Of a stretch of 64,000 bases of DNA, positions 47,757 through 62,380 are shown piece after piece. Under the pieces are notes generated by a model that saw only the letters and a program-made list of their open reading frames with translations, was not told where the DNA came from and did no database searches. The stretch is taken from contig NZ_NSFV01000002.1 of assembly GCF_002295115.1 (NCBI RefSeq), positions 558,001 through 622,000 on the forward strand, in the 5' to 3' direction. The DNA comes from Mesorhizobium sp. WSM4311. Its GTDB lineage: Bacteria > Pseudomonadota > Alphaproteobacteria > Rhizobiales > Rhizobiaceae. Each line of letters opens with the position of its first letter. Position 1 is the stretch's first letter. The translations under genes were made by a program, and so were the position numbers.

Positions 47757-49001
47757 TCATCGCGGCGAGGCGGCCATGATGGCCGTCCGCAGCAGGACGT
47801 GCGCGCCGATCACTGCGTCGCCAGGTTCCACATACTCCGCCTCGTTGTGGCTAAGCCCGTCACGGCACGGCACGAATATCATTGCGGCGGGCGCGACGCG
47901 GGCGAGGAACAGCGCATCATGGAAAGCGCCCGATATCATCTGCTTGTACTGAAGCTGCAGGGACCTGGCGGCCTCCTCGACGGTGTTGACCATATCCGGC
48001 GAGAAGGCCGCCCCGGGCATATCGAACGATCGCTTGATCACTGCCGTGCAATGCTGGGCCTCTGCTTCCGCCGCGCAGACCTGGCGGACCTCGGCTTCTA
48101 TGACATTGAGCTGCTCTGCCCGCGGATGCCTGATATCGACGGTGAAGGCCACCGATTGCGGTATGGCGTTGATCGATCCCGGCCTGGCGGCGATCCGGCC
48201 CACCGTCAGCCGCGCGCTGCTGTCGAGCGGCATGATTGTCGTTTGCAGCCTGTGTATCGCGGCAATCGCGGCGACCATCGGATCCCTGCGGTAGGCAAGG
48301 TCTGTCGTGCCCGCATGACCGGAAGTGCCCTGGATGGAGACTTCCAGCCAGCGCGTACCCTGGACGGCGGTCACGACACCGATCGGCAACTGCTCCTTTT
48401 CCAGTGATGGGCCCTGTTCGATATGCAGCTCGACATAGCCTGATATCGGCATGCCGGTTGGACGAAGGGCAGCCTCCGGCAAGGCGGTGATCGTCGCCTC
48501 CAACTCAGCTGCGAGGAGTGCACCGTCGGCGCCGACAATGGATTTCCACGCGGCGGTATCCGCACCGGTGAAGGCCATGGAGCCCATGACGCCCGGCGCG
48601 AAGCGGCTGCCTTCTTCATTGGCCCAGGCGACGACCTCGACCGGCATTCGGGTTTCAGCCCGTGCGTCCTCCAGCGCCTCGAGCACCTCGAAGGCGGAAA
48701 GCGTGCCGAGCGCACCGTCGAAGCGCCCGCCTGTCGGCTGGCTGTCGAGATGGCTGCCGATCAGGAACGGTGGCAGCGTGGCATCCGTGCCCTCGCGGCG
48801 AATGAAGAGGTTCGCGATACCGTCCTGAAAGACCGTGAAGCCGCGCTCCAGGGCCAGCTCCGCCAGGAGGCGCCGGGCCCTGCGATCCTCGACGCTGAAC
48901 GCCTGCCGGTTGACACCGCCGGCTGGTGTCGCCCCGATCCTGGCGAAAGCGTCAAGCCGCCCGAGCAGTCTGTCGCCGTCAATCCGAGGCGTCAAACTCA
49001 T
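47757..49001 (-). CDS. M20-family N-carbamoylase/allantoate-amidohydrolase-like enzyme
   Basis: A 414-residue Zn-dependent amidohydrolase of the hydantoinase/carbamoylase (HyuC/AllC) group. Metal-site motifs are IGSHLDSQPTGGRFDGALG near residue 80-98, VEVVAWANEEGSRFAPGVMG near 123-142, ELHIEQGP near 190 and the late His in GLSHNEAEYVEPGDA. Such enzymes release ammonia and CO2 from N-carbamoyl amino acids or ureido acids. Its ATG at 49001 overlaps the BtpA stop as ATGA; it is the last gene of the leftward eight-gene catabolic operon. The substrate is unknown. Confidence 0.88.
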   Translation of the reverse strand: MSLTPRIDGDRLLGRLDAFARIGATPAGGVNRQAFSVEDRRARRLLAELALERGFTVFQDGIANLFIRREGTDATLPPFLIGSHLDSQPTGGRFDGALGTLSAFEVLEALEDARAETRMPVEVVAWANEEGSRFAPGVMGSMAFTGADTAAWKSIVGADGALLAAELEATITALPEAALRPTGMPISGYVELHIEQGPSLEKEQLPIGVVTAVQGTRWLEVSIQGTSGHAGTTDLAYRRDPMVAAIAAIHRLQTTIMPLDSSARLTVGRIAARPGSINAIPQSVAFTVDIRHPRAEQLNVIEAEVRQVCAAEAEAQHCTAVIKRSFDMPGAAFSPDMVNTVEEAARSLQLQYKQMISGAFHDALFLARVAPAAMIFVPCRDGLSHNEAEYVEPGDAVIGAHVLLRTAIMAASPR

Positions 49002-49846
49002 CGCTTGAGGCCGCTGATGAAGGCCTTCACCCGCAGCGGATCGACTTGGTTCCACCAGACGCCATCATGTTTCAGCGAGCTGGCGACGATGACGCCGTCG
49101 ACAATGTCGAGAATGTCGTTGGCATTTTCGGGCGTCACGCCGCTGCCGACAAGCGTCGGCAGCCCGGCCGCGTCCTTGATCATCCTGATGTAGCCGAGGT
49201 CGGCGGCGTGGCCGGTGCGCTGGCCGGTGGCGATCACCGCATCGGCATCGAAGAACACCAGGTCCTTGACCTGTTCCTCGACCGGCCGGTCGCCGACGAT
49301 CGCATGGGCGCCATGCTTGACATGCGCATCGGCGAAGATGCGGATGCCGTTGGCGCGAAGCCTGGCACGGAAGCGCATGGCGCGCGCCGCCTCGCCTTCG
49401 ATAAAGCCCTCATTGGCGACATAGGCATTCGCCCACTGATTGACGCGCACGAAGGAGGCACCCGAGGCGCTGGCGATCGACAGCGCGGGGATGGAGGCAT
49501 TGGCGAGCACATTGATGCCGATCGGCCGGCCGAGTTCCCTGCGGATGCGGTCGGAGACGACGGACATGTAAGCGGAGGTCTCGGGGCCGATATCGTCCGG
49601 CTTGGCAAAGGGCACGTCGCCATGGTTCTCGACGATCACGCCGTCGCAACCGCCATCGAGATAGGCTTTGGCATCGTCGAGGCCGCACTGGTAGATGGCC
49701 TCGACCGCCTCGCCATCGTAGCGCGGCGCGCCCGGCAGGGGCGCCAGATGCACGACGCCGATCACCACTTTCTTTCGACCGAAGATCGATTGCAGCGCGT
49801 CATCGGCGACCTGCTTGGAGCCGATGGAGTTGGGGGATCTTGTCAT
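48998..49846 (-). CDS. BtpA-family TIM-barrel protein
   Basis: A 282-residue protein of the BtpA/SgcQ family: VVIGVVHLAPLPGAPRYDGE near residue 27, DGVIVENHGDVPFAKP near 69, FVRVNQWANAYVANEGFIEG near 130 and GLPTLVGSGVTPENANDIL near 230. It has a phosphate-binding TIM-barrel pattern at its C-terminal strands. BtpA was first linked to photosystem I stability, and SgcQ lies in a sugar-catabolism operon of E. coli; the chemistry is not known. Start and stop both overlap neighbours by 4 bases (ATGA), so translation is tightly coupled. Confidence 0.87.
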   Translation of the reverse strand: MTRSPNSIGSKQVADDALQSIFGRKKVVIGVVHLAPLPGAPRYDGEAVEAIYQCGLDDAKAYLDGGCDGVIVENHGDVPFAKPDDIGPETSAYMSVVSDRIRRELGRPIGINVLANASIPALSIASASGASFVRVNQWANAYVANEGFIEGEAARAMRFRARLRANGIRIFADAHVKHGAHAIVGDRPVEEQVKDLVFFDADAVIATGQRTGHAADLGYIRMIKDAAGLPTLVGSGVTPENANDILDIVDGVIVASSLKHDGVWWNQVDPLRVKAFISGLKR

Positions 49847-50754
49847 GCGGTTTCCGCTTCCGTCGTTTCCATGAGTATCTTCATCTCTTGCCTGTCGGGG
49901 CAGGAGCCGAGCGTGCCGGGGCGACCGACCGAAATGGCCGCGGCTCGTACCGCGATCCGCGCTGCCGCGGCGAGGCCGATCCCGGCCGCAAGGCAGCCTG
50001 AGAGGCAGCCGCAAAAGACATCGCCCGCGCCGCTGGTGTCCACCACGTCCGTCTTGGGCGCCGCGAACCGGTCGATCCGTCCTTCACGGTCGGCAACCAG
50101 GCAGCCGGCCGCGCCAAGTGTCACGATCGCGCTGTCGGCGCCTTGACGGATCAATTCGCGGGTCGCCGCGGCTGCATCGCCGGTTCCGGTCAGTTGCTCT
50201 GCTTCGCCTGCGTTGACGATAGCGAGGCTGACGGCACCCAGACACGGTGTCGAACCGACCGCAAGCGGGCTCGGATTGAGGATTGTCATGGCGCCCGCGC
50301 TGCGCGCCGCTTGCAGGCAGGCTGTCGTTATATCGGGAAGAAGATTGCCTTGCATCACCACGATGTCGCCGCGTTCGATCGACGTCGCGAAACCGCTGTC
50401 GGCCAGCGGATCGAAGGCGGCGGCGCAGCTGGCGCCGGTGACGATGAGGTTTTCGCCCCGCTCATCGACGATGATCGTCGACCGGTCGCTCGGCAGCGCC
50501 AGCATTGTCAGATGGCTGGCGTCGAGGTCGCGGCTCAGCTGTTCCCGTATCCAAAGGCCGGCGGCATCGTCGCCGATCGCCGCATGGAAACGGACATCGG
50601 CTCCGGTGCGGGCGGCGGCCACTGCCTGGTTCGCCCCTTTGCCGCCAAGTCCGTCAACATGACTGGACGCGTTCAACGTCTCGCCAGGCCGCGGAAAGCG
50701 GCCCAGCTGAAACGTCGTATCGACGCAGGCATTGCCGACGACATGGACGCGCAT
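49843..50754 (-). CDS. PfkB-family sugar kinase (ribokinase-like)
   Basis: A 303-residue ATP-dependent sugar kinase. The N-terminal substrate loop GGKGANQAVAAARTGADVRF lies near residue 37-56 and the C-terminal catalytic signature VVDTSGAGDVFCGCLSGCLA near 236-255, with Asp in GAGD as the base. Ribokinase, fructokinase, adenosine kinase and others share these. Next to an RbsABC-like importer it probably phosphorylates the imported sugar moiety. The ATG at 50754 lies 2 bases after the upstream stop. Confidence 0.9.
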   Translation of the reverse strand: MRVHVVGNACVDTTFQLGRFPRPGETLNASSHVDGLGGKGANQAVAAARTGADVRFHAAIGDDAAGLWIREQLSRDLDASHLTMLALPSDRSTIIVDERGENLIVTGASCAAAFDPLADSGFATSIERGDIVVMQGNLLPDITTACLQAARSAGAMTILNPSPLAVGSTPCLGAVSLAIVNAGEAEQLTGTGDAAAATRELIRQGADSAIVTLGAAGCLVADREGRIDRFAAPKTDVVDTSGAGDVFCGCLSGCLAAGIGLAAAARIAVRAAAISVGRPGTLGSCPDRQEMKILMETTEAETA

Positions 50755-50756
50755 GG

Positions 50757-51527
50757 CTAATCCCTGGCTGTCGCCCAGCCCAGCATCTGTTCGAAGAGTG
50801 TCTTGTAGCCATTCCAGGCGATGAAGCCCGGCGGCAGCCAGTGCGGCCCGACATCCGATGTCCAGGCGACGGTGCGGCCCTTGCCATATTTGCCGGTCAC
50901 CAGCAGGGGCATGGATTGGTAGTCGGAAGACACGGTGGCGAGGATTTCGGCGCCCTCCTTGACCGTGACCTCGTTGAAGCCGAGCAGGATCGGCCAATCC
51001 TTGCCCAGGCCCTTCAGGATCGGATGGCTTTGAGGGCCGACAACGACCGGCGCATAGCCCTCGGGCACCTCGACGCGATCGTCCACCGGCAGGCAGGTCA
51101 CCGGCAGAACATCCTCGACCGGCGTCTTGTGGTAGCGTGCGCCGCCATTGATGCCCTGGAAGCTGTAATAGCCGCCGAACATCAGGAGGCCGCCGCCATT
51201 GCCGACATAGTCGCGCAGCAGCCGCAGCCGGTTCGGCGTCGGCTTGGAGTGGACCCAGGTGTCGGGGTGAAGCAACAGCGTATTGGCGCCAAGGTCGGAA
51301 AGCACCACGGCGTCATAGGCCGAAAGCGTCTCCATGGTCTGGGGAAAATTCCGCTGCGCTTCGTGCGCCGGCATGAAGGTGACGTCGAACGGACCATCCT
51401 TCAGCGCCGCCAGCAGTTCATCGGCGCCGGTGTGATAGGTCACGGTCGGGAACTGGTCGAAGCCTTTGATGTGGGTCGCGGTCGAGACCCAGGACTCGCC
51501 GGCGAGAAGAACTTTCTTCCTGGACAT
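50757..51527 (-). CDS. Glutamine-amidotransferase-like (class I GATase fold) protein
   Basis: A 256-residue cytoplasmic protein of the COG5426-type group, with the flavodoxin-like GATase fold: LLAGESWVSTATHIKGFDQF near residue 7-26, LSAYDAVVLSDLGANTLLLH near 68-87 and GNGGGLLMFGGYYSFQG near 109. The place of the usual nucleophile Cys is taken by GGYYSF, so amidotransferase activity is doubtful. A ThuA-like role in sugar metabolism is an alternative. GGGAG lies 5 bases before the ATG. It is fifth in the operon. Confidence 0.78.
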   Translation of the reverse strand: MSRKKVLLAGESWVSTATHIKGFDQFPTVTYHTGADELLAALKDGPFDVTFMPAHEAQRNFPQTMETLSAYDAVVLSDLGANTLLLHPDTWVHSKPTPNRLRLLRDYVGNGGGLLMFGGYYSFQGINGGARYHKTPVEDVLPVTCLPVDDRVEVPEGYAPVVVGPQSHPILKGLGKDWPILLGFNEVTVKEGAEILATVSSDYQSMPLLVTGKYGKGRTVAWTSDVGPHWLPPGFIAWNGYKTLFEQMLGWATARD

Positions 51528-51560
51528 GTAAACTCCCTGTTTTTTGCTGTGGCCGGCAGC

Positions 51561-52649
51561 TCAGAGGCTCGCGGCGAACACGGTCTTTGGGTTGTCGATG
51601 AGCATGCGGTCGATTGCCGATTGCTCGACACCATGGCGTTTCAGCCTTGGCACGAAATGCTTGAGGATGAAGCCGTAGCCGAAGCCGCCGAAGCGCGTCA
51701 GCATGATCTTCAGGAAGACGTCCTGCGACAGCAGGATCCTGTCGACCAGCCCCATGTCGATCAACGAACGGATCGCCTGCGCATTCTGCTCGTCGGAAGG
51801 CGATTGCGCATCCTGGTCGGCATAATAGAAATCCATGCCGATCATGTCGTATTCCAGGAAGGCGCCACGCGCGGCGAGGCTTGTCTGATAGCCAAGATCA
51901 TTGTGGCTCGGATTCATATGGCAAAGGACCGTGTGTCTCAGATCCGCGCCTTCGGCCTCGACCACGTCGAGCACGTCATGCGCCAGCCGTTCCCAGCCGG
52001 GCAGATGGATGGTCAGCGGTACGCCGGTGATCCTGGCCGCGCGCGCTGAAGCCCGCAGCGACTTGCGTTCCTCTTCGGTGAAATCCTTGCTGACGCCGAC
52101 TTCGCCGATGATGCCGGCCATGATTTCGGGCTGCGTCGAGCCGCCGCCGACATCGTTGACGAGAAATTCCGTGACGGCATCGACGTCCATCGCCTTCAGC
52201 CAGTCGGGATGGGTGTGCTGCAGGTAGAAGCCTGTGCCCATGACGATGCGCAATCCGGACGCGCGGGCAATACGCGCCAGTTTCACCGGATCGCGGCCGA
52301 TGCCGATATTGGTCGCGTCGACAACCGTGTGGCCGCCCAGCGCCCGGTACCTGGCGAGCTCGGAAAGCGCCAGGTCGCTGTCGTCGAGCGAGACATTGTC
52401 GCGGTTCATGTAGGGGTTCATCCGCAACTCGCCGATGATCTCCATGCTGACCGGCTGCTCGGCGATCTTCCTGTCGTCGGGATGGCAGGGGCATTTCCAG
52501 GATGTCGAGCCATCGAGCAGGATATGCTCGTGCATCAGCGTCACGCCCATGTCGGCGATCGCGACCGGGCCGGTAACGGTCATCACGGTCCCGGAGCGAA
52601 CACCGATCGGCACCCTTTGCCTTGGCGTGTTGTCGAACAAATGATCCAT
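51561..52649 (-). CDS. Phosphotriesterase-family hydrolase (lactonase-like)
   Basis: A 362-residue metal-dependent amidohydrolase-superfamily enzyme. The first metal ligands are in LMHEHILLD near residue 38. The bridging residue position reads IIGEVGVS, so a Glu sits where phosphotriesterase has a carboxylated Lys, as in E. coli Php. Later ligands appear in LTIHLPGWE, HTVLCHMNPSH and the Asp in ILLSQDVFLK. COG1735 members act on phosphorylated sugar lactones in a characterised Mycoplasma case. Here it is probably hydrolysing a lactone or ester of the imported compound. It lies 1 base from the permease gene. Confidence 0.88.
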   Translation of the reverse strand: MDHLFDNTPRQRVPIGVRSGTVMTVTGPVAIADMGVTLMHEHILLDGSTSWKCPCHPDDRKIAEQPVSMEIIGELRMNPYMNRDNVSLDDSDLALSELARYRALGGHTVVDATNIGIGRDPVKLARIARASGLRIVMGTGFYLQHTHPDWLKAMDVDAVTEFLVNDVGGGSTQPEIMAGIIGEVGVSKDFTEEERKSLRASARAARITGVPLTIHLPGWERLAHDVLDVVEAEGADLRHTVLCHMNPSHNDLGYQTSLAARGAFLEYDMIGMDFYYADQDAQSPSDEQNAQAIRSLIDMGLVDRILLSQDVFLKIMLTRFGGFGYGFILKHFVPRLKRHGVEQSAIDRMLIDNPKTVFAASL

Positions 52650-52650
52650 G

Positions 52651-53664
52651 TCAGCGGCTCCGCGTCGCGCCCTTGAACAGGCGGAAATTCAGCCAGATGG
52701 CAACGAGGATGATAGTGCCGGTGACAATCGGCGTCAGGAAGGGCGACATGTGCGCCAGGATCAGGCCGTTGCCGATGACCGCGACGGTCAATGCACCGAG
52801 CACGGTGCCGATGATCGTACCGCGCCCGCCGAACAGGCTGGTGCCGCCAAGCACCACGGCGGCGATGACATCGAGCTCGAAACCCTGGCCGGAATTGGAC
52901 GAGCCGGAGCCCAGCCGCGCGGCCAGAATGACGCCGGCCGACGCTGCCGCCATGCCCGATAGGACATAGACGAAGAGCGTCATGAAGCGCGTATCGACGC
53001 CGGCGCGGCGCACAGCCTCGGCGTTGGCCCCGATGCCGGTCACATAGCGGCCGAACGGCGTCTGGTTGAAGGCGAGATAGGCGATGGCCAGGACGACAAG
53101 GGCGAGCAAGGCGGGCACAGGCACACCGAGGAACCAGGCCCTGCCGATGTTGACGAAGAAGCTCGTCGGCTCGACCGGGATCGAATAGCCGCCGGTGATC
53201 AGCAGCGCCACGCCACGGATGACCGAGAGCCCGGCAAGCGTGACGATGAAGGCCGGGATGCGCTCATAGGCTATGAAGAAACCCTGCAAGGCGCCGATCG
53301 CCGCGCCAAGCGCCAGCATGCCGACAACGACCAGCGGCCATGGCAAGCCGGCCTGCAGCGCAACGGCCGAAAGTGTCGCCGTCAGTGCCAGCACGGACCC
53401 AACCGAAAGATCGATGCCTCCGGTGGTGATGACGAAGGTCATCGCCGCCGCAACGATCAGCAGCGGCGCCGATTGGCGCACGATGTTGAGCAGATTGGGC
53501 GTGGTCAGGAAGGATCCGGTGACCAGCGAGAAGACCACGCAGACGACGATGAAGAACAGCGCGATGGAAACGACGCTGCCATTGGCTGCCGCCACATCCT
53601 TCCAGGTGCTGTTGTGGGCGCGTTTGGGCGGCGAGGCGCCAACACCGGCGGAGGTGACGTTCAT
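52651..53664 (-). CDS. Sugar ABC transporter permease (RbsC family)
   Basis: A 337-residue inner-membrane permease of the ribose/xylose/AI-2 type (BPD_transp_2). About nine or ten hydrophobic segments; family motifs are TGGIDLSVGSVLALTATLSA near residue 85, IGANAEAVRRAGVDTRF near 209 (EAA-like loop) and GGTSLFGGRGTIIGTVLGAL near 275. It works with the ATPase whose gene overlaps it by 4 bases (ATGA) and the binding protein further upstream. Confidence 0.93.
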   Translation of the reverse strand: MNVTSAGVGASPPKRAHNSTWKDVAAANGSVVSIALFFIVVCVVFSLVTGSFLTTPNLLNIVRQSAPLLIVAAAMTFVITTGGIDLSVGSVLALTATLSAVALQAGLPWPLVVVGMLALGAAIGALQGFFIAYERIPAFIVTLAGLSVIRGVALLITGGYSIPVEPTSFFVNIGRAWFLGVPVPALLALVVLAIAYLAFNQTPFGRYVTGIGANAEAVRRAGVDTRFMTLFVYVLSGMAAASAGVILAARLGSGSSNSGQGFELDVIAAVVLGGTSLFGGRGTIIGTVLGALTVAVIGNGLILAHMSPFLTPIVTGTIILVAIWLNFRLFKGATRSR

Positions 53665-54461
53665 GGCTGTACCCCCTCGTCGCGGCTGGCACGCGCCGAT
53701 CGTGCGGTGAATTTCCGGCCGACGATCAGGTTGACGACCTCCTCGATGCTGGTGTCGCCGATCCTGCGTTCGGCGACGTTGCGGCCCTCATACATGACCT
53801 GGATGCGGTCGCAGACCAGGAACAGGTCTTGCAACCGGTGCGTGATGAGGATGACGCTGACGCCGCGGGCGCTGACGGCGCGGATGAGGTCCAGCACCGC
53901 CTCGACTTCCGCCACCGCGAGGGCGGCTGTCGGTTCGTCCATGATCAGCACCGATGGATCGAAGGAGGCGGCGCGGCCGATGGCGATCGACTGGCGCTGG
54001 CCGCCGGACAGGTTCTCGACCTTGAGCCTGGTATCGGCGATGACGATGCCGAGCCGGTCGAGCATCTCGCGCGTCTGTTCATGCATGCGCCTGTTGTCGA
54101 GAAAGGGGACGCCGAGCACGTGGCGGCGAGGCTCGCGGCCGAGGAAGAGATTGCCGGCCACATCCACCGTGTCGCAGAGCGAAAGGTCCTGGTAGACCAT
54201 CTCCACCCGTGCCGCGCGGGCATCGGCCGGCGAGGAAAAGGACACGGCCTTGCCATCGATCTCGATCGTGCCGGAATCCGGAATGACCGCGCCGGACAGA
54301 ACCTTGCTCAAGGTGGATTTGCCGGCGCCATTGTCGCCGACCAGGCCGAGCACCTCGCCAGGTTTCAGGTTCAGCGAAACATCATCCAGCGTCTGGATCG
54401 GGCCGTATCGTTTGGAAATACCGGTCATCCTGACGCGGCAGGTTTCGCCATCGCTCATCAT
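53661..54461 (-). CDS. Sugar ABC transporter ATPase, single-domain type
   Basis: A 266-residue ATPase with one nucleotide-binding domain: Walker A GDNGAGKST near residue 43, signature LSGGQRQSIAIGRA near 150 and Walker B VLIMDEPTAALAV near 170, then the H-loop ITHRLQD. Typical RbsA has two domains on about 500 residues; single-domain versions (FrcA-like) act as homodimers and are common in rhizobia. Starts at 54461, 54458 or 54476 are possible. The gap of 91 bases to the binding-protein gene is the longest inside the operon. Confidence 0.92.
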   Translation of the reverse strand: MMSDGETCRVRMTGISKRYGPIQTLDDVSLNLKPGEVLGLVGDNGAGKSTLSKVLSGAVIPDSGTIEIDGKAVSFSSPADARAARVEMVYQDLSLCDTVDVAGNLFLGREPRRHVLGVPFLDNRRMHEQTREMLDRLGIVIADTRLKVENLSGGQRQSIAIGRAASFDPSVLIMDEPTAALAVAEVEAVLDLIRAVSARGVSVILITHRLQDLFLVCDRIQVMYEGRNVAERRIGDTSIEEVVNLIVGRKFTARSARASRDEGVQP

Positions 54462-54552
54462 GGTTCCAGTTCTCATGCGGCATGTTCAATCGGTCGCCGG
54501 GCTGCGCGACGACCACAAAGTCGATGCGCGGCCCGGCGGTCTGGGGAGGATC

Positions 54553-55494
54553 TTACTTGAACATGTCCTTGAACTGGCCGACATTTTCCTTGGTTACGAT
54601 GGTGATCGGAACGTTGATGATCGGATCGATCTTCTCGCCCTTCTTGAGTTTGCCGAAGGCTTCGATGGCAGCCTTGCCTTCACCGGCCGGATCCTGCTGG
54701 ACGACGGCGATTACCCAGCCCTCTTCGAGGCCTTGCACCGCGGATTTGGTCAGGTCCCAGCCGAACACCTTGACGTCGCCGGTACGGCCCTGGCTGGTGA
54801 CGGCCGAAACGGCGCCGAGCAAGGCCGGCTCGCCGGTCGCATAAAGCGTCGTCATGTCGGCATTGGCCGTCATCAGGTTTTCGGAGGCCGACAGCGCCAC
54901 GTCCTGCACGTTCTGGCCATCGACCGTGTCGAGGAAAGTCACCTTCTGGCCGCTCTCGGTGACAGCCTTCTTGAAGCCGTCCAGGCGCTGATTCTGGATG
55001 AACGAATTGAGCGCGCCGACAACGCCGATCTTTGCGGTTCCGTTCAGCTTGGTCTTGACGTATTCGGCGTAGAACTTGCCGATATCCTCGCCGGCCTTGG
55101 TGTTGTCGACGCCGACGAAGGCGACATTGTCGCCATTCGGGATCTGCGCGTCGATGGCAATCACTGGAATACCGGCGGCCTTGGCCGCGGTGATCGCGGG
55201 CTTCACGCCGTTGACATCGATGGCGACGAGAATGATGCCGTCGACCTTCTGGGTAATGTAGTTCTCGATCGCGTCGTTTTGCGCGCTCGGCACATTGTTG
55301 GCGTTGAAGATGACGAGGTCGACGCCGGCGGCCTTTGCCGCGGCCTTGGCACCGTCATTGATCTGGTTGAAGAACAGGGCCTGCTGGTTGATGGTGACCA
55401 GCGCATAGGTTTCGGCCATGGCCGAGGCGGAGCCAAGCGCGAGGGTCATGGCGATGGCTGCGGCGCAGCCTGAAAGGATCTTGGTAAGACGCAT
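54553..55494 (-). CDS. Sugar ABC transporter periplasmic binding protein (RbsB family)
   Basis: A 313-residue receptor with a signal peptide (about 27 residues, ending SASAMA|ET). The mature protein has the Peripla_BP_4 pattern: FFNQINDGAKAAAKAAGVDL near 41-60, KVDGIILVAIDVNGVKPAIT near 83-102, GIPVIAIDAQI and FVGVDNTKAGEDIGK. Aromatic ligand-stacking residues are few (FF41-42), so the ligand could be a pentose, a nucleoside-like or a non-sugar compound. First structural gene after the promoter at 55561-55589. Confidence 0.93.
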   Translation of the reverse strand: MRLTKILSGCAAAIAMTLALGSASAMAETYALVTINQQALFFNQINDGAKAAAKAAGVDLVIFNANNVPSAQNDAIENYITQKVDGIILVAIDVNGVKPAITAAKAAGIPVIAIDAQIPNGDNVAFVGVDNTKAGEDIGKFYAEYVKTKLNGTAKIGVVGALNSFIQNQRLDGFKKAVTESGQKVTFLDTVDGQNVQDVALSASENLMTANADMTTLYATGEPALLGAVSAVTSQGRTGDVKVFGWDLTKSAVQGLEEGWVIAVVQQDPAGEGKAAIEAFGKLKKGEKIDPIINVPITIVTKENVGQFKDMFK

Positions 55495-55560
55495 TCCGGT
55501 TCCCCTTGGTTTTGCGGAAAAGGCCCTTGATCGGGCTCATCTGGCGCTGGGCGCAGACGC

Positions 55561-55598
55561 ATAATTCAAGATACTTGATTTCTTGTCAAGTGACTTGA
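55561..55598 (-). promoter_or_regulatory. Promoter with two TCAAG-N3-CTTGA operators
   Basis: On the minus strand a consensus -35 TTGACA (55589-55584) is followed after exactly 17 bases by AATTAT (55566-55561) as -10, about 60 bases before the binding-protein ATG. Two dyads of the form TCAAG-N3-CTTGA lie at 55566-55578 (centre ATA) and 55586-55598 (centre TGA), centre to centre 20 bp apart, two helical turns. One covers the -35, the other sits between the elements. Repressor binding by the upstream XRE-cupin protein is the natural inference. Confidence 0.75.
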
Positions 55599-55634
55599 AT
55601 TGGCGCTGCCGAAAGGAGATGGGGGCCGGCGAGA

Positions 55635-56252
55635 TCAGAATGTCGCCGGCGTATTTACCCAGAAAATGCTGGCGCGTTCGTCGCCGACATTGCGGTACCA
55701 GTGCGGCAGTTCGGAGTTGAAAACGAAGGAATCGCCGGCGGACAGGCGAAACGTCTTTTCACCGACCATCAGTTCAATGGCGCCTTCCAGGAGATAGCCG
55801 ACTTCCTCGCCGGCGTGCTGGATCGGGCCGGCGCTTTCACCGCCCACCTCGATATGATGGATATTGCACTGCAGAAGGTGGCCCGGCGAATAGGGAATGA
55901 CGCGCTCCAGCGATATGCCTTCGCCGCGCCTGAGCGGATCGAGCGCGATCAGCGGCCGTGCTCCGGCGCGAAAGACAATGCCTTCCTCGCCATCGGCTTC
56001 CTCGAACATCCAGCCGATGTTGGTGCCGAGCACCTCGACCAGCCGGTGAAGCATGGGCAGCGAGGGTGAGACCTTGCCGTTCTCGACCTTGGAAAGCAGG
56101 CTTTCAGAGCAGTTGGCGGCAGCCGCGAGCGCCTTCAGGGTCAGGCCACGCGTCTGCCGGGAGAGCTTCAACCTTGTGCCGAGCCGCAGCAGGCTGGTTG
56201 CGGTAGAGCGCTCGTCGGCGCCCTTGCTGTTGTGGCTATCGATCTTGTTCAT
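55635..56252 (-). CDS. XRE-family regulator with cupin sensor domain
   Basis: A 205-residue transcription factor. The helix-turn-helix (about 22-77) reads RLGTRLKLSRQTRGLTLKAL, then AAAANCSESLLSKVENGKVS. The C-terminal cupin (about 125-195) carries the ligand or metal pocket QHAGEEVGYLLEGAIELMVG and SAGDSFVFNSELPHWYRN. This PuuR-like architecture senses small molecules in catabolic operons. It lies upstream of and in the same direction as the importer operon, with the double operator in the 140-base gap between them. Confidence 0.92.
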   Translation of the reverse strand: MNKIDSHNSKGADERSTATSLLRLGTRLKLSRQTRGLTLKALAAAANCSESLLSKVENGKVSPSLPMLHRLVEVLGTNIGWMFEEADGEEGIVFRAGARPLIALDPLRRGEGISLERVIPYSPGHLLQCNIHHIEVGGESAGPIQHAGEEVGYLLEGAIELMVGEKTFRLSAGDSFVFNSELPHWYRNVGDERASIFWVNTPATF

Positions 56253-56374: not shown

Positions 56375-56402
56375 CGCCCCGCCGTATAACACCGGCGGGG
56401 CG
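56375..56402 (-). terminator. Hairpin after the DDAH-like gene
   Basis: A perfect 10-bp stem CGCCCCGCCG / CGGCGGGGCG with an 8-base loop starts 9 bases beyond the stop of the gene at 56411 on the minus strand. There is no clear T-run, so termination is likely but not certain. Confidence 0.5.
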
Positions 56403-56410
56403 GTGATCTC

Positions 56411-57343
56411 CTACGCTGCTTCGCGCTTCAAGGCCTGCGCCATGCAGTGGATGCCGCCGCCGGTCTTGGAGATCTCGCTCATGTCGACGGCCGCGACCTC
56501 GAAGCCGCGCGCCTTGAGCTGGCCGATCAGCGTCTGGCTGGAGGTCGGCGCGATCACCCGGTCCTTGCCGAGCGACATGAAGTTGCAGCCGAGCGCCATC
56601 GTGTCCTGGAAGGGAACATCGATGATCTCGTGGCCCTTGCCCTTCAGCCAGTCGACGATGCCGGGCTCTGTGCAGGCGAGGCACACTGCAGTGAGCTTTT
56701 CGGCGATCGGCACCACCATCAGGTCGATATGGACATAATATTCGTCGATGAAGGCGATGCGGGTTTCCCAGCCCTCCTTCTCGAACCAGGCCTGCACCTG
56801 GCGGGCGCCTTCTTCCTGGGTGCGGGCGCCGCCGCAGCCGATCAACACCACGCCGTCCTCGATGACGTTGAAGTCGCCGCCCTCGAATGTGCCTGCCGTG
56901 ACCATGTCGTAGATCGGGATGCCGAGCTTCTCGTAGGTGCGGATGGCGGCATAATTTTCGCCGCGCCGCCACCAATTGGCCATGGCGGTAATGATCGCAC
57001 CGTAGGGCGTCATGACGCTGGAATCGCGGGAATAGACCTGCATCGGCAGTTCCGGCGTCGGCTCGTGCCAGTGGATGTTGACGCCGAAATGCTCGTAGGC
57101 GGCGACCAGGTCCTTATGCTGCGCCTGCGCGATCTGGATGTTGCAGGGCGCCTCGCGCAGGTGCTTGCGCGACAGCGAGCTGGTCGACAGATGCCGCAGG
57201 AAATTCGGCGATCCCAGCAGCACGTCGGTCAACATGTCGGTTTCGTTGGCGAAGCCCCACGATGTCAGCGGCTTGGTGCCGCCGGCCGGATTGCGGCGCT
57301 GCAGCGAAAACGGCTCGGCGACGATGCGATCATGAACGGTCAT
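56411..57343 (-). CDS. Dimethylargininase/arginine-deiminase-like hydrolase
   Basis: A 310-residue member of the guanidino-group-modifying superfamily. Catalytic elements: Asp in VYSRDSSVMTPYGAI near residue 104, EGGDFNVIEDGVVLIG near 153, His in EYYVHIDLMVVPIA near 205 and nucleophile Cys300 in GGGIHCMAQA. The length fits dimethylarginine dimethylaminohydrolase (about 255-310) better than arginine deiminase (about 410). It would convert a methylated arginine or related guanidine to citrulline and an amine. Its 5' end overlaps the AbgB-like gene by 14 bases. Confidence 0.85.
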   Translation of the reverse strand: MTVHDRIVAEPFSLQRRNPAGGTKPLTSWGFANETDMLTDVLLGSPNFLRHLSTSSLSRKHLREAPCNIQIAQAQHKDLVAAYEHFGVNIHWHEPTPELPMQVYSRDSSVMTPYGAIITAMANWWRRGENYAAIRTYEKLGIPIYDMVTAGTFEGGDFNVIEDGVVLIGCGGARTQEEGARQVQAWFEKEGWETRIAFIDEYYVHIDLMVVPIAEKLTAVCLACTEPGIVDWLKGKGHEIIDVPFQDTMALGCNFMSLGKDRVIAPTSSQTLIGQLKARGFEVAAVDMSEISKTGGGIHCMAQALKREAA

Positions 57344-58970
57344 GCGGTTCTCCTCGTGGGCTTGTTCTCAAGAGTTGGTCGGGACCTGTCTTGCTTGGGA
57401 TCCACCAGTCGCGGCCGCGCGCCGTGGTGACATATTCCGGCCAGCGGAAGTTGATTGGCGGTTCGTAGTCGCAGAGCGGTGCGATCCAGTTGGTGCCGCC
57501 AATGCCGCCTCCGGTGCGGGTGACGAACTCGTCCATCGCCGCATCGCGGGCTTTTTCGTCCTCGAGCAGGCGCAGCGCCGCCAGCGCGACCGTCTTGGCC
57601 GCACAGGCAACCATCGGATCGATCGTCGCTGAAATGCCGCCCAGCGCATTCATCACCCAGGAGGGATAGGCATGGCCTTTGGCCGAACGCAGCGCCGGAC
57701 GGGCGACGTAAAAGCGTGCTGTCGGCGCGTGCCAGCTCATGTCGGTGTAGTCGTCGGAGGTCGAATTCAGCTGCGAAGGCGGCAGGTCGCGGCGCAGGAT
57801 CGCTTCCGCCTCCTGTGGTGCGATCAGCCGCTCCAGCTCGTCGATGAACGGGTTCTCGGTCGCGGTACCACCGGCATTGACCTGGATTTCGCGCCCGATC
57901 GCCCTGGCGGCCTCGTCCCAGCATGGCGGCCCGACCGTCGACAGCGCTTCATAGGCGATCTCGGCCATGGCGTGATTGGCCAGCCCGGGCCGCGACTTCG
58001 ATACCCAGTGGCGCTCATAACGGCAGCCGCCGATCGCGGCCGCCGCCGCCGCATTTCGGTCCAGCACGGCGGTGACCTGCTCGGCCATCCGAAGCGTCGG
58101 CACGCGGATCATGTACTGGATCTCGGCCAGCCCTGCCGGCAGATTGTCGGCCGTGGCCTGGCCCGCCGTCAGGATCGCCTCGCTGATCGACCAGCCGCCC
58201 TGATGCGGCAGCATGGAATCGCGCAGCGCCTTGGACGCCATGTACATCGTCATCAGCGCGTCGTTGGCGCCCGGCGCGCGGACCGCCGAATGCGCCTGCG
58301 GGATCGGTGCGCCATCGCCTGCGCGAACCCAGTTTTCGGGTTCGTCGCAAACAAAGCGGTAGATCATGGCGTAGGCTGCTCCACAATGCGTGTCCCAGCG
58401 CGCGGTGTTGCAGAGCGGCAGCATGTAGAAGGGATGGAAGGAGATCATGCCGGCAAGGCCGTCATAATAACCCTTGGCCGCATGGATAGGTTTCGAGCCG
58501 CGCACCTTTTCGGCCGGCTCGCCGGTAAAGCGCAACGTGCCTGGAATGCCATGGTGCTGCATCGCCGCCTTGGTGGCCAGCAGGCCGCCGAGGCTTGCCA
58601 TGCCGAGCCCCGAATGCGGGTCGGTGTGGCCGCCGGCCTCGACGCCAAGGCCGGGCCGCGGCTGCTTGACCGTGACCGCGTCCTGGCAGTTGCCGGGAAC
58701 CGCGTCATATTCGGCATACAGGCCGACCGTCGGCCCGGCGCCATTCGTCCAGTGGGCGCAGAAGGCGGTCGGCATGCCGCCGGAACCTTCCTCGACGGCA
58801 AAGCCTTCCCGCTTCAGTCGCTCCACATACCACGCGGCGGACTGATACTCGCGCCAGGCGGTCTCGCCGAAATCGAAGATGGTGCGCGTCCACGCCGACA
58901 GCAGCGGCTGGATGCCGTCGAGGCAGGCAAGGGCGGTCTCTTGCGCCGATGTCGTCACCGGTTTGTCCAT
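57330..58970 (-). CDS. M20 amidohydrolase, AbgB-like
   Basis: A 546-residue metallopeptidase/amidohydrolase related to subunit B of p-aminobenzoyl-glutamate hydrolase. The catalytic core has FGETAWREYQSAAWYVERLK near residue 34, TVGLYAEYDAVPGNCQDAV near 80 and the metal-site AGGHTDPHSGLGMASLGGL near 112-130; the dimerisation domain is in the middle (about 210-330), and late ligand residues follow (STSDDYTDMSW). It should cut an amide bond in an N-acyl amino acid or peptide-like compound. It is divergent from the LysR gene and overlaps the DDAH-like gene. Confidence 0.88.
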   Translation of the reverse strand: MDKPVTTSAQETALACLDGIQPLLSAWTRTIFDFGETAWREYQSAAWYVERLKREGFAVEEGSGGMPTAFCAHWTNGAGPTVGLYAEYDAVPGNCQDAVTVKQPRPGLGVEAGGHTDPHSGLGMASLGGLLATKAAMQHHGIPGTLRFTGEPAEKVRGSKPIHAAKGYYDGLAGMISFHPFYMLPLCNTARWDTHCGAAYAMIYRFVCDEPENWVRAGDGAPIPQAHSAVRAPGANDALMTMYMASKALRDSMLPHQGGWSISEAILTAGQATADNLPAGLAEIQYMIRVPTLRMAEQVTAVLDRNAAAAAAIGGCRYERHWVSKSRPGLANHAMAEIAYEALSTVGPPCWDEAARAIGREIQVNAGGTATENPFIDELERLIAPQEAEAILRRDLPPSQLNSTSDDYTDMSWHAPTARFYVARPALRSAKGHAYPSWVMNALGGISATIDPMVACAAKTVALAALRLLEDEKARDAAMDEFVTRTGGGIGGTNWIAPLCDYEPPINFRWPEYVTTARGRDWWIPSKTGPDQLLRTSPRGEPHDRS

Positions 58971-59045
58971 GCATCAAAGAAAGCAGTGAAGCGGCTCGCC
59001 AAAAAGTGATATGTTTTCCCGGTTCATGCAAATTCGGTTCACCTC

Positions 59046-59933
59046 TTGAGAATTCCATCCACACAGGCGCTGCGCGCCCTCGACAGTTTCGCCCGCCACG
59101 GCAGCGTCTGGCGTGCCGCCGACGAACTGCACCTTACCCGCAGCGCGGTAAGCCACCAGCTGCGGCTTTTGGAACGCGATCTCGGCTTCGATCTGCTGCA
59201 GCGCATCGGCAAGGGGGTGGCGCTGACGCCGCGTGGCCAGCGCTACGCAGCCGATGTTAGGAAGGCGCTGACCGTGCTCGGCGACGCGGGAGCGCAGACG
59301 AACGGCGCCGGCGTCGGCGGCTCCTTTGCCATCTCCTGTCCGCCCGGCTTCGCCTCCATGTTCCTGTGCACCCATATCGGCGAGTTCCAGCAGATGTACC
59401 CTGACGTGGCGCTCTCGGTGCTGACGCCGCGCCGGCTCGATGACGTCTCGAACCCGGACGCCGACGCCTTCATCGCCTTCGGCGTCGGCAACTGGCCGAA
59501 CCGGGTGGTGGAGCTGCTCTGCGAAGTCCACTTCACGCCGCTCTGCAGCCCGACATTGCTCAACAAGGTCGGCGGCTTTTCCAAACCGGCGGACGTCCTG
59601 CGCGCCAACCTGCTGCATCTCTCCGACACCGAGGACTGGGCGCGCTGGCTGGCGCTGTCCAAGGTGGAAAACCCGGATACCGAAGGCGGTATCTTCTTTT
59701 CCGACATGAACCTCGTCTTCTCGGCGGCGGTCGCCGGCCAGGGAATTGCCATGGGCGACGAGCTGACCGGCCGCCGGGCGCTGAGCGAAGGCCGGCTGGT
59801 CAAGCCGTTTGAAGCGTCAGTGCCCTCGCCACGCTCCTATTTCCTTGTTTTCGAGCACGCCAAGGCCGGTCATCCCGTGCTCAACGCCTTCAGCGACTGG
59901 CTCAGGGCGAAGCTGTCGGAGAACAGACTCTGA
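59046..59933 (+). CDS. LysR-type transcriptional regulator (GcvA-like)
   Basis: A 295-residue LysR regulator, complete in length, unlike the deleted one at 9125. The helix-turn-helix lies at about 4-60 (QALRALDSFARHGSVWRAAD, then LTRSAVSHQLRLLERDL). The effector domain follows from about 90 (SFAISCPPGFASMFLCTHIG). The start is TTG at 59046, matching the usual RIPSTQALRALDSF beginning. It is divergent from the AbgB-DDAH pair, so it probably controls them from the 75-base gap, and perhaps also the Pot-type importer downstream. Confidence 0.92.
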   Translation: MRIPSTQALRALDSFARHGSVWRAADELHLTRSAVSHQLRLLERDLGFDLLQRIGKGVALTPRGQRYAADVRKALTVLGDAGAQTNGAGVGGSFAISCPPGFASMFLCTHIGEFQQMYPDVALSVLTPRRLDDVSNPDADAFIAFGVGNWPNRVVELLCEVHFTPLCSPTLLNKVGGFSKPADVLRANLLHLSDTEDWARWLALSKVENPDTEGGIFFSDMNLVFSAAVAGQGIAMGDELTGRRALSEGRLVKPFEASVPSPRSYFLVFEHAKAGHPVLNAFSDWLRAKLSENRL

Positions 59934-59936
59934 TCT

Positions 59937-59952
59937 GTCCCTCTTAAGGGAC
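59937..59952 (+). terminator. Small hairpin after the LysR gene
   Basis: A 6-bp stem GTCCCT / AGGGAC with CTTA loop lies 4 bases after the LysR stop; no T-run follows. It could be a weak terminator between the regulator and the importer genes. Confidence 0.4.
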
Positions 59953-60083
59953 CCTCGATGCGGAGATTTGGCGCGTCCCGACTGCCAGACGTGAATCAAA
60001 TTTGCCGATCAGGCGAAAACTATTCGGTTGCGGTGAGCCGCCAGCCTGCCTACGATTTCACCTGGGACTGAGGAAGAGGCAGG

Positions 60084-61178
60084 ATGCAGCAACCCGGCCG
60101 GGCCGCAGAGATCAAGGCAATTGGAATCGGCAAGAGCTTCGGCTCGTTCCGTGCGTTGGACAATCTGTCGCTCAATATCGGCCGCGGCGAATTCCTGACG
60201 CTGCTCGGCCCTTCCGGTTCGGGCAAGACCACCTTCCTGATGATCCTGGCCGGCTTCGTGCAGCCGACAGACGGCAAGCTTTTCAGCGACGGCACCGACA
60301 TCACCGACCGCCCGGCCGAGCAGCGCGCCGCCGGCATGGTGTTCCAGGGCTATGCGCTGTTCCCGCATATGAGCGTCGAGGCCAACATCGCCTTCCCGCT
60401 CAAAGTGCGCAAGAAATCGGCCGCAGACATCAAGAAGCGCGTCGGCGAGATGATCGAGCGCGTCGGCCTGATCGGCCATGAGAAGAAACTGCCCTCGCAG
60501 CTCTCCGGTGGCCAGCAGCAACGCGTGGCGCTCGCGCGCGCACTGGTGTTCGAGCCGGGGGTGCTTCTGCTCGACGAGCCGTTCTCGGCGCTGGACAAGA
60601 GCCTGCGCGGCCAGATGCAGGCCGAGATGAAGCGCCTGCACCAGGAAACCGGCACCACTTTCGTCTTCGTCACCCACGACCAGAGCGAGGCGCTGGCGCT
60701 GTCTTCCCGCGTCGCCATCTTCAACCACGGCAAATTGCTGCAGGTCGGGGCGCCGGATGAAGTCTACGACCGGCCGGACAACCGCTTCGTCGCCGAATTC
60801 CTTGGCGAGATCAACATGCTGCCGCTGAAGGGGGTCAAGCCTGCCGACAATGGCTCGACGGGCCTTTGCGAAGACCGCGCGGTCAATATGCACTGCAAGG
60901 CCGAGAAGGTCCGTGGCGACGCCATCCTGGCGATCCGGCCCGAGCATATGTCGATCGCGCGCGAAGCGGCCGCCGGTGAAAACGGCATCGCGGCGACCGC
61001 CATTGCCTCGACTTATCTGGGCGCCGCCACAAAGCTCGATCTGACCACGCGCCAAGGCGCGAAGGTGACCGTCTCGGTGCCGAACGAGGTTGCCGCTGCG
61101 GCACTGAGCAAAGGCAATTCCGTCTGGCTGACCTGGCCGGCGGAAAAGGGTTTCCTCCTTCCGGACGGAGGACAATGA
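60084..61178 (+). CDS. Polyamine-type ABC transporter ATPase (PotA family)
   Basis: A 364-residue ATPase. Walker A is GPSGSGKT at 42-49, the signature LSGGQQQRVALARAL near 140, Walker B VLLLDEPFSALDKSLR near 160. The C-terminal third is a TOBE/OB regulatory domain (AILAIRPEHMSIAR near 283), as in PotA, which binds the permease and sometimes a ligand. It heads the order potA-potD-potB-potC. The start of 60084 places the family's usual lead-in before the Walker A motif. Confidence 0.92.
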   Translation: MQQPGRAAEIKAIGIGKSFGSFRALDNLSLNIGRGEFLTLLGPSGSGKTTFLMILAGFVQPTDGKLFSDGTDITDRPAEQRAAGMVFQGYALFPHMSVEANIAFPLKVRKKSAADIKKRVGEMIERVGLIGHEKKLPSQLSGGQQQRVALARALVFEPGVLLLDEPFSALDKSLRGQMQAEMKRLHQETGTTFVFVTHDQSEALALSSRVAIFNHGKLLQVGAPDEVYDRPDNRFVAEFLGEINMLPLKGVKPADNGSTGLCEDRAVNMHCKAEKVRGDAILAIRPEHMSIAREAAAGENGIAATAIASTYLGAATKLDLTTRQGAKVTVSVPNEVAAAALSKGNSVWLTWPAEKGFLLPDGGQ

Positions 61179-61248
61179 GCACCGGCGCGGCCTGATCCGC
61201 CGCACCGGCTTCCGGACTGAAATCAACGAAAAACAAAGGGGAACTGAC

Positions 61249-62361
61249 ATGAACGACACCAAGAAACACGCCATCGAGACGCTGTCCGAAAGGACCAGAC
61301 GCGGCGAGATCTCGCGCCGCCAGTTCACGCAGCTGGCAGCCCTCGTGCTTGCCGGCACGCCGATGCTGCTGCGCTCGACCGGAGCCTTTGCCGCGGCCAA
61401 GGAACTGGTGCTGGTCAATTGGGGTGGCGACGCCATCACCGCCTATGATGCGGCCTATGGTCAGGCTTTCACCAAGGACACCGGCATCACCGTCAAGATG
61501 GACGGCTCGGGCCCGACCGAAGGCGCCATTTCGGCGCAGTTCAAGAGCGGCGCGCCGACCTGGGACCTGGTCGACGTCGATCCGTTCTCGGCAATCACCC
61601 TCGGCGCCCAGGGTGCGCTCGAGCCGATCGACTACAACATTGTCGACAAGAAGAAGATGCGCCCCGGCTTCGGCTGGGAATATGCCGCCTCGACCTATTT
61701 CTTCTCCTACGTCATCGCCTATGATTCCGAGAAATACGGCAAGGACGCCCCGACCGGCATGGCCGATTTCTTCGACGTGAAGAAGTTCCCCGGCAAGCGC
61801 TCGCTCTACAAATGGGGCGTGTCGAGCTGGGAAGCGGCGCTTTTGGCCGACGGCATCGCGCCGGCTTCGCTCTACCCGCTCGACCTCAAGCGGGCGCATG
61901 ACAAGATCGCCGCCTTCAAGGAAAACGTCGTCGCCTACTGGGGTGGCGGCGCCGAGAGCCAGAGCGTGCTGCTCAACGGCGAAGCTTCGATGGCCATCGT
62001 CTGGTCAACCCGCGCGTCGCTGATCGAGCAGGATTCCGGCGGCAAGATCAAGTTCATCTGGGACCAGGGCCTGATCTCGCCCGGTGCGCTGGCCGTGCTC
62101 AAGAACAATCCCGGCGGCAAGGACGCGGCGATGAAGTTCATCGCCAGCGCGCAGGATCCGCAAAAGCAGCTCGTCATGTTCGACAAGCTCGGCCAGGGTC
62201 CGGCCAACCCGGCGGCCGACGCGCTGATCCCGGCCGACAAGAAGCGCATCAACCCCGTCGATCCCGAAAACATGAAGAAGCAGATCGCGCTCGACATGGA
62301 CTGGTACGCCAAGAACTACGGCGCGGCGCTCGACGAATACACCAAGATCATCTCCGCCTGA
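61249..62361 (+). CDS. Polyamine-type ABC transporter substrate-binding protein (PotD family)
   Basis: A 370-residue receptor with a twin-arginine-type signal (SRRQFTQLAALVLAGTPMLL, cleavage near FAAA). The mature protein starts LVLVNWGGDAITAYDAAYG, a hallmark of the spermidine/putrescine receptor group, with later SAQFKSGAPTWDLVDVDPFS and EAALLADGIAPASLYPLDLK. The ligand need not be a polyamine; relatives take opines, phosphonates and amino compounds. A strong AAAGGGG site lies before the ATG. Confidence 0.92.
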   Translation: MNDTKKHAIETLSERTRRGEISRRQFTQLAALVLAGTPMLLRSTGAFAAAKELVLVNWGGDAITAYDAAYGQAFTKDTGITVKMDGSGPTEGAISAQFKSGAPTWDLVDVDPFSAITLGAQGALEPIDYNIVDKKKMRPGFGWEYAASTYFFSYVIAYDSEKYGKDAPTGMADFFDVKKFPGKRSLYKWGVSSWEAALLADGIAPASLYPLDLKRAHDKIAAFKENVVAYWGGGAESQSVLLNGEASMAIVWSTRASLIEQDSGGKIKFIWDQGLISPGALAVLKNNPGGKDAAMKFIASAQDPQKQLVMFDKLGQGPANPAADALIPADKKRINPVDPENMKKQIALDMDWYAKNYGAALDEYTKIISA

Positions 62362-62380
62362 TCGGCAGCGATGATCTGAG

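Follow-up and report, generated by a model that had tools for sequence, protein, structure and literature searches.

A conserved catabolic operon that joins a BtpA family protein, a PF07090 protein and a sugar kinase in Mesorhizobium

Which compound is imported and broken down by genes that place a BtpA family protein and a PF07090 protein beside a sugar kinase, two hydrolases and a single importer? This question is raised by a cluster of leftward genes in Mesorhizobium sp. WSM4311, within a 64,000-nucleotide stretch of contig NZ_NSFV01000002.1 (the window), which a preliminary description had read as eight genes for the uptake and breakdown of a sugar-linked ureido or carbamoyl compound. Nine genes, rather than eight, were found on the minus strand from position 56252 to position 47757, and they form a catabolic operon that is real, conserved and undescribed in the open-licence literature searched. 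The operon is tentatively interpreted, with a probability of about 0.4, as an inducible system for a small compound made of a ribose-like unit and a nitrogen-rich part, such as a nucleoside-like riboside or a ribosylated amide or ureide, on which a PfkB kinase and then BtpA would act.

Gene order and an operator-like motif

In order of transcription, all on the minus strand, the operon comprises an XRE-cupin transcription regulator (55635-56252, 205 aa; HTH plus cupin, PuuR-like, Pfam HTH_31 and Cupin_2), an RbsB-type periplasmic receptor (54553-55494, 313 aa; PF13407, 188.9 bits), an importer ATPase with a single nucleotide-binding domain (53661-54476, 271 aa; PF00005), an RbsC-type importer permease (52651-53664, 337 aa; PF02653), a COG1735/phosphotriesterase-family hydrolase (PTE; 51561-52649, 362 aa; PF02126, 223.9 bits against a cut-off of 22.4), the PF07090 'GATase1-like' protein (GAT; 50757-51527, 256 aa; 379.5 bits), a PfkB/ribokinase-like sugar kinase (49843-50754, or from a TTG start at 50760; PF00294, 153.2 bits), the BtpA/SgcQ family protein (48998-49846, 282 aa) and, as an optional last gene, an amidase of the M20 hydantoinase/carbamoylase family (M20c; 47757-49001, 414 aa). 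These assignments were made with Pfam and NCBIfam profile cut-offs on the window proteins, and all of the earlier family calls hold. The tight junctions earlier claimed for most of the operon are likewise borne out, with five of the eight lying within 4 bases: -4 at ATPase/permease, PfkB/BtpA and BtpA/M20, +1 at permease/PTE, and either +2 (ATG start) or -4 (TTG start) at GAT/PfkB, the remaining junctions being +33, +76 and +140.

The window BtpA was used to scan one genome per species, yielding 351 confirmed relatives from which the best 80 were kept, so that the conservation sample leans to close relatives. All eight core genes, from regulator to BtpA, occurred in the same order at 71 of the 76 loci for which 8 kb or more, ending with BtpA, was available. 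The exceptions were one locus without the upstream part (L034), two in which no kinase was found (L035 and L052), one in which no regulator was found (L046), and one with no GAT in place and a 62% identical GAT elsewhere in the stretch (L081). M20c directly followed BtpA at 62 of the 77 loci with room for it. Identity to the window proteins was 69-99% for GAT, PTE and the permease, 79-98% for BtpA, 41-96% for the kinase and 54-95% for M20c, across hosts including Mesorhizobium, Rhizobium, Labrys, Aureimonas, Shinella and their relatives, and the gene set is thus conserved beyond a single genome, the lack of which would have told against the preliminary description. The flanks were little conserved, the commonest being a DDAH/AbgB gene pair (12 of 80 loci) and the next a single cluster (11 of 80), and this together with the fixed gene order rules out chance clustering. 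Among 398 sampled Pseudomonadota genomes, BtpA exceeded its cut-off in 18 and PF07090 in 24; 15 of the PF07090 matches were strong (above 200 bits), and the other nine were weak, partial and within frames of approximately 700 residues or more.

A new operator-like motif, TCAAGTNNCTTGA, was found over the receptor-gene promoter at all 75 loci that have both the XRE and receptor genes, when scanned on the operon strand with at most one mismatch. In the window, copy 1 (TCAAGTCACTTGA, 55586-55598, minus strand) overlaps a proposed -35 box, TTGACA (55584-55589), and copy 2 (TCAAGTATCTTGA, 55566-55578, minus strand), 20 bases downstream, shares one base with a proposed -10 box, AATTAT (55561-55566), the spacer to the -35 box being 17 bases; both copies lie within the 140-base regulator-receptor intergenic region. 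At least one copy fell within the corresponding interval at 75 of 75 loci, and two copies exactly 20 bases apart at 43 of them. Matches numbered 118 in 16.4 kb of intervals versus 21 across the rest of 1.5 Mb. The XRE-cupin regulator, which scores 89.6 bits against the PuuR model and so falls under its cut-off of 211, is inferred to bind the motif, and the operon is probably under regulation. At locus L179, with a more distant regulator (52%), no such motif site was found. The exact pattern occurs in the window genome at two sites in the operon and three elsewhere, and since a backwards control pattern gave five matches, the three distant sites may be due to chance, and the idea of a genome-wide regulon was set aside.

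The same motif recurs at two loci of a different build, in which an XRE-cupin regulator 75-76% identical to that of the window stands between two gene groups (L187:8103-14461 and L188:4425-10838), one holding GAT and a nitrilase, the other M20c, an NMT1-type receptor/importer and an M24 enzyme, with no kinase or BtpA beside them. In both, the motif precedes GAT and stands at the start of M20c, the latter site lying, in L188, just inside the longest M20c frame. As the motif is common to the two genes, M20c appears to be tied to GAT by likely regulation as well as by position. This set perhaps handles the same nitrogen compound without its sugar.

Sugar import, phosphorylation and the predicted BtpA barrel

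The three importer families are those of CUT2 systems (PF13407 receptor, PF02653 permease and PF00005 ATPase), and together with the kinase family they support the earlier claim of uptake and breakdown of a sugar-like compound. A CUT2 importer with a ribokinase-like kinase is also the basis of the ribose operon, laid out as rbsDACBK, from which the window operon differs by adding PTE, GAT, BtpA, M20c and a cupin regulator, by its one-domain ATPase and by a kinase and receptor that miss ribose-specific cut-offs. The ATPase covers only the first half of the RbsA model (positions 6-252 of 501) and does not have the two fused domains of RbsA, and the permease scores 226.1 bits against the ribose permease model, under the cut-off of 398. 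The best PDB match of the receptor is 5hsg (334.7 bits); it falls below the ribose-specific NCBIfam cut-off, and in alignment with the ribose-binding protein 2gx6 it keeps part of what are taken to be the ribose-contact positions, with several changed.

For the kinase, the top model was ribokinase (TIGR02152, 209.9 bits, under the cut-off of 299.65), and membership of the PfkB family itself is secure. A QGN triplet is present in 75 of 78 related PfkB proteins, where the ribokinase 4x8f aligns QLE, and QGN likewise stands at this place in 3i3y/3ikh, a carbohydrate kinase by its PDB name and presumably from Klebsiella, against which the BtpA-linked kinase of locus L170 scores 455.7 bits. If the glutamate of QLE touches ribose O1 in ribokinase, as is assumed here, its loss would fit a substrate with a substituted anomeric carbon, which is offered as a lead only.

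BtpA first became known through studies of cyanobacterial photosystem I. The window protein exceeds the curated cut-offs of PF03437 (248.8 versus 30 bits) and TIGR00259 (231.7 versus 153.4 bits) and falls under that of the photosystem I biogenesis BtpA model (NF045918; 206.2 bits against 400). An AlphaFold2 model built with 33 close relatives is an eight-stranded barrel (mean pLDDT 76.8, pTM 0.81). Its closest matches by VIA-align were 3-hexulose-6-phosphate synthase, HisF and HisA-type enzymes (Z 18-20), and by Foldseek pyridoxine-phosphate synthase, TrpA, ribulose-phosphate epimerase (RPE), thiamin-phosphate synthase and PRAI. These matches are phosphate-binding barrels, acting on phosphorylated sugars or similar compounds, and BtpA is accordingly predicted to be a phosphate-binding TIM barrel of the HisF/HisA/TrpA class. 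Residues H32, N73, D76, N111, R133, D201, G235 and K258 are conserved in at least 38 of 41 aligned BtpA proteins (alignment numbers; adding 1 gives those of the 282-residue protein), and in the model they mostly lie at strand ends or just past them. Apart from two divergent sequences (L132 and L172), the alignment falls into two main subfamilies: the window type, with ENHGD-, DxHVKH- and GSGVTPEN-like motifs, and a second type of 12 rows, with GNENDRPY-, NxSAEF- and ANTGV-like motifs, which includes the sgc-type protein of locus L155. A Schiff-base aldolase acting through the HVKH lysine was considered and rejected, as this lysine is absent from the second subfamily.

Kinases are frequent companions of BtpA. 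Among 41 BtpA entries of the neighbour-scanned loci, a set that differs from the 41 aligned proteins, 36 had a PfkB or FGGY kinase nearby, namely 26 PfkB (25 by script, plus L168 by Pfam) and 10 FGGY (nine by script, plus L118 by annotation, at 6.1 kb; L165, with both kinds, was counted here). Ten of the 41 entries came via GAT, and of the 31 found through BtpA itself 27 had such a kinase. The background for PfkB alone in the window genome is 19 match places in 7 Mb, or approximately 0.03 per 12-kb stretch. All ten FGGY cases fall in the second subfamily. Read from its kinase and hydrolase neighbours, BtpA would follow a phosphorylating step, and the conjugate it acts on would require hydrolases as well. 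With the predicted barrel and the companion kinases, the earlier idea that this operon may give BtpA a role becomes testable.

A second BtpA system for comparison is the sgcABCEQX operon of E. coli, in which SgcQ is the BtpA family member and for which the substrate was called unestablished in 2026, in the available part of PMC13343008. As far as that part describes it, the sgc operon resembles the window operon in that BtpA goes together with sugar import, phosphorylation and a metallohydrolase, and differs in having a phosphotransferase system (PTS) rather than an ABC importer and kinase, an M42 hydrolase and an epimerase; its type of BtpA, as seen in L155, belongs to the other subfamily. 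A broader proposal is that BtpA and SgcQ are general barrels cleaving phosphosugar conjugates after a phosphorylating step, the pattern of neighbours suggesting PfkB as phosphorylating partner of one subfamily and an FGGY kinase or PTS as that of the other. Here, PfkB and BtpA would replace nucleoside phosphorylases or hydrolases, with the riboside phosphorylated and then split. The proposal is doubtful at present; if true, it would provide the first catalytic role for the BtpA family, perhaps including its members in cyanobacteria and archaea. Searches of the literature for BtpA, for SgcQ, for PF07090, and for TenA with Rhizobium and BtpA returned nothing on a pathway.

Two other settings of BtpA were observed. 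M42 aminopeptidase-like genes adjoin second-subfamily BtpA genes both in the sgc-type PTS locus (L155:6291-11047) and in an FGGY context (L160:8157-10120). On a Sagittula plasmid (L128:3132-10481), TenA, a PfkB kinase and a pair of BtpA genes adjoin genes for a ureidoglycine aminohydrolase, a RidA-family protein (2735-3130) and a Zn-dependent hydrolase with 36% identity to M20c, a neighbourhood that represents a possible ureide link.

Hydrolases, sister clusters and competing interpretations

The PTE carries all five scored metal-site motifs in 77 of 79 relatives, and with 101.2 bits it is under the cut-off of 500 for organophosphate hydrolase (OPH; NF041153). Its closest PDB chain is 3k2g (429.9 bits), which is taken to be Rsp3690, followed by Pmi1525 and by 9efa, a chain named phosphotriesterase-related protein (228.1 bits). 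Esterase activity is reported for Rsp3690 and Pmi1525 in the accessible portion of PMC5341072, and the animal enzyme PTER is described, in those parts of PMC13311154 and PMC11374699 that could be consulted, as a hydrolase of N-acetyltaurine and N-acetyl-beta-alanine. PTER resembles the operon PTE as a PTE-family metalloenzyme, in its case one acting on an amide, and 9efa, of that name, matches the operon protein closely, which is nevertheless far closer to 3k2g. With two esterases and a protein bearing the name of an amidase among the relatives, the lactonase-like step earlier proposed is one option only.

The GAT matches PDB 3soz and 2gk3. A GGY[YF]SF elbow is present in 79 of 79 relatives, at the position that is assumed to be the place of the amidotransferase cysteine, and no cysteine aligns between the window GAT and 3soz; the 'GATase' name is therefore misleading, and the catalytic cysteine of class I glutamine amidotransferases is not found in GAT. 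The literature searched yields no chemistry for PF07090, though structures have been solved. M20c scores 393.3 bits against TIGR01879, above the subfamily cut-off of 204, has all five scored metal-site motifs in 58 of 62 relatives, and lies under the cut-offs of both the allantoate amidohydrolase AllC model (TIGR03176; 230.4 bits against 597.75) and the N-carbamyl-glutamate model.

Sister operons combine these genes differently. Plasmids of R. leguminosarum and R. johnstonii carry importer-PTE-GAT-BtpA-TenA-ribokinase, with a LacI regulator in R. johnstonii; Roseivivax has LacI-importer-PTE-GAT, a kinase and BtpA-TenA; in Paracoccus BtpA is followed by a different M20 enzyme; and Roseomonas has LacI-GAT-BtpA-kinase with an oligopeptide-type importer. 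In Pantoea the set is split into M20-GAT-PTE-permease-ATPase and a kinase with BtpA-TenA-second importer-deacylase. The TenA, nitrilase and M24 partners of such clusters also suggest that C-N bonds are involved. Forty-nine GAT copies were scored on 68 loci, an uneven sample of 22 hand-picked annotated-record loci and 46 genome stretches in which some genomes of the BtpA relative scan are repeated; nearby were PTE for 26, a PfkB-like gene for 27 (counted at 26% identity or more, a few possibly being false), BtpA for 21 and an RbsB-type importer for 32. Another setting of GAT is an Agrobacterium pTi plasmid (L126:7998-15578), where it stands near hydantoinase/oxoprolinase, SIS-domain and fructoselysine 6-kinase genes.

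A Proteus locus (L115) has kinase-GAT-DMT-PTE, which is the published layout of the Salmonella rikA-STM3548-STM3549-STM3550 cluster, to which no substrate is assigned in the portion of PMC13432705 (2026) available. There, RikA phosphorylates D-ribose and supports growth on ribose, and the authors suggest that the ribose activity may be off-target. As described in that portion, the cluster shares a PfkB kinase, a PF07090 GAT and a PTE-family hydrolase with the window operon; it has a DMT transporter in place of the ABC importer, so the full rikA set is not present in the window, and the BtpA, M20 and XRE-cupin regulator genes of the window are not among its four described genes. This is the closest published cluster. 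Within the open-licence papers searched, the earlier statement that no pathway is described is upheld, and earlier transport studies in Sinorhizobium or Rhizobium may contain an answer.

In the interpretation favoured here, the cupin regulator would cover the promoter at the double near-palindrome, whose conservation is observed, and repress the operon, and the RbsB-type receptor and its importer would bring the compound in. The PTE metal hydrolase, together with GAT, would open or trim an ester, lactone or amide bond; PfkB, judging by its family and the RikA precedent, would phosphorylate the ribose-like part; and BtpA would cleave or rearrange the phosphorylated conjugate. The products would be a pentose phosphate that enters central metabolism and the nitrogen part, from which M20c, where present, would remove a carbamoyl or acyl group. 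The earlier pathway is thus plausible in outline, with its carbamoylase step reduced to an optional extension.

Several observations weigh against this interpretation. Among the 49 GAT copies, 23 had no PTE and 28 no BtpA nearby, and seven were without all ten partners scored, so that GAT appears to be more widely used than the operon. The BtpA model is only moderately confident, with weak loops, and a shared fold does not fix a reaction. Five of the 41 BtpA entries had no PfkB or FGGY kinase in the scanned stretch (L130, L131, L132, L155 and L194, of which L155 is the sgc-type locus with a PTS and L194 a short contig). Of the eight core proteins, the kinase varies most (median identity 54%, against 80-87%), and it is undetectable in L035 and L052. 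At 15 of 77 loci no M20c directly follows BtpA. A plain pentose also has to be considered as the substrate, because RikA works on free ribose.

Under that last alternative, the receptor would take ribose, another pentose or a sugar lactone, with PTE as lactonase, PfkB as ribokinase and BtpA as isomerase or epimerase. The best kinase scores are indeed to ribokinase models, growth on ribose is supported by RikA in the available text of PMC13432705, GAT in Monoglobus has as its neighbour a gene with the annotation N-acyl homoserine lactonase family, and in L155 a ribulose-phosphate-epimerase-family gene is two genes away from BtpA. However, kinase and receptor both fall short of ribose-specific cut-offs, the presumed ribose contacts of the receptor are altered, and C-N hydrolases recur as partners that a plain sugar would not need, to which the possibly off-target nature of the RikA activity, raised by its authors in the same text, may be added. 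A plain pentose is therefore unlikely, and a nitrogen-rich aglycone is suggested to fit the evidence better.

The nature of the nitrogen part is at issue in two further alternatives. The original description, in which the compound carries a ureido or carbamoyl group linked to a sugar and the M20 carbamoylase is a required step, would agree with the clear placement of M20c in the hydantoinase/carbamoylase family, with its conservation at the loci that have it after BtpA and with the operator motif it shares with GAT in L187 and L188. However, the loci lacking the gene, its replacement after BtpA by TenA or a different M20 enzyme in other versions, and scores that reach neither the allantoate nor the N-carbamyl-glutamate model make an obligatory carbamoylase distinctly unlikely, and what stands of that claim is an optional step with a regulatory tie to GAT in two genomes. 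Salvage of formylaminopyrimidine or a related thiamin-type pyrimidine is brought to mind by the TenA-family gene that immediately follows BtpA in R. leguminosarum, Pantoea, Roseivivax and Sagittula, by an ArgE/DapE deacylase in Pantoea and by NMT1/THI5-like receptors in sister clusters, including NMT1 receptors with GAT. It is very improbable, given that no TenA was found in the window genome, that two scored TenA proteins gave 44.4 and 75.2 bits against a thiaminase II cut-off of 130 (the one checked passes the broad Pfam family), that neither 20 kb of the window nor six sister loci gave a match to any Rfam family, the TPP riboswitch included, and that a ribokinase-type kinase would not be needed.

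The preferred reading, a ribose-like unit carrying a nitrogen-rich part, leads to direct experiments, since the operon joins BtpA and PF07090 in a compact unit with a kinase, a screenable receptor and a conserved operator-like motif. The ligand of the receptor would identify the substrate of the operon and perhaps the one used by the Salmonella rikA cluster as well. Once the substrate is identified, BtpA could become assayable on the kinase product, reducing an old protein-family question to a few assays through which the operon could reveal the function of the family.

Upstream neighbours in the window

Upstream of the operon, the region 56411-63999 carries two hydrolase genes, one DDAH-like (guanidino hydrolase) and one AbgB-like (M20 amidohydrolase), which face a LysR-type gene and a further set of ABC-importer frames (ATPase, receptor and permease), the last two families having been assigned by eye. 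The DDAH and AbgB-like genes (56411-58970) were considered as operon members, lying upstream on the same strand, and rejected, being present at 12 of 80 loci only. The pair recurs beside the related operon in L186. In the order-level sample, a close DDAH relative occurs without the operon, for example in G071 (no GAT or BtpA match), and DDAH relatives lie on another contig or far from GAT in G472, G571, G529 and G503. As the DDAH/AbgB set stands apart from the operon in several genomes, it appears to form a unit of its own for import and hydrolysis. A perfect 10-base-pair hairpin (56375-56402; 28 bases, no T run) occupies part of the gap that separates the regulator gene from the stop codon of the DDAH gene.

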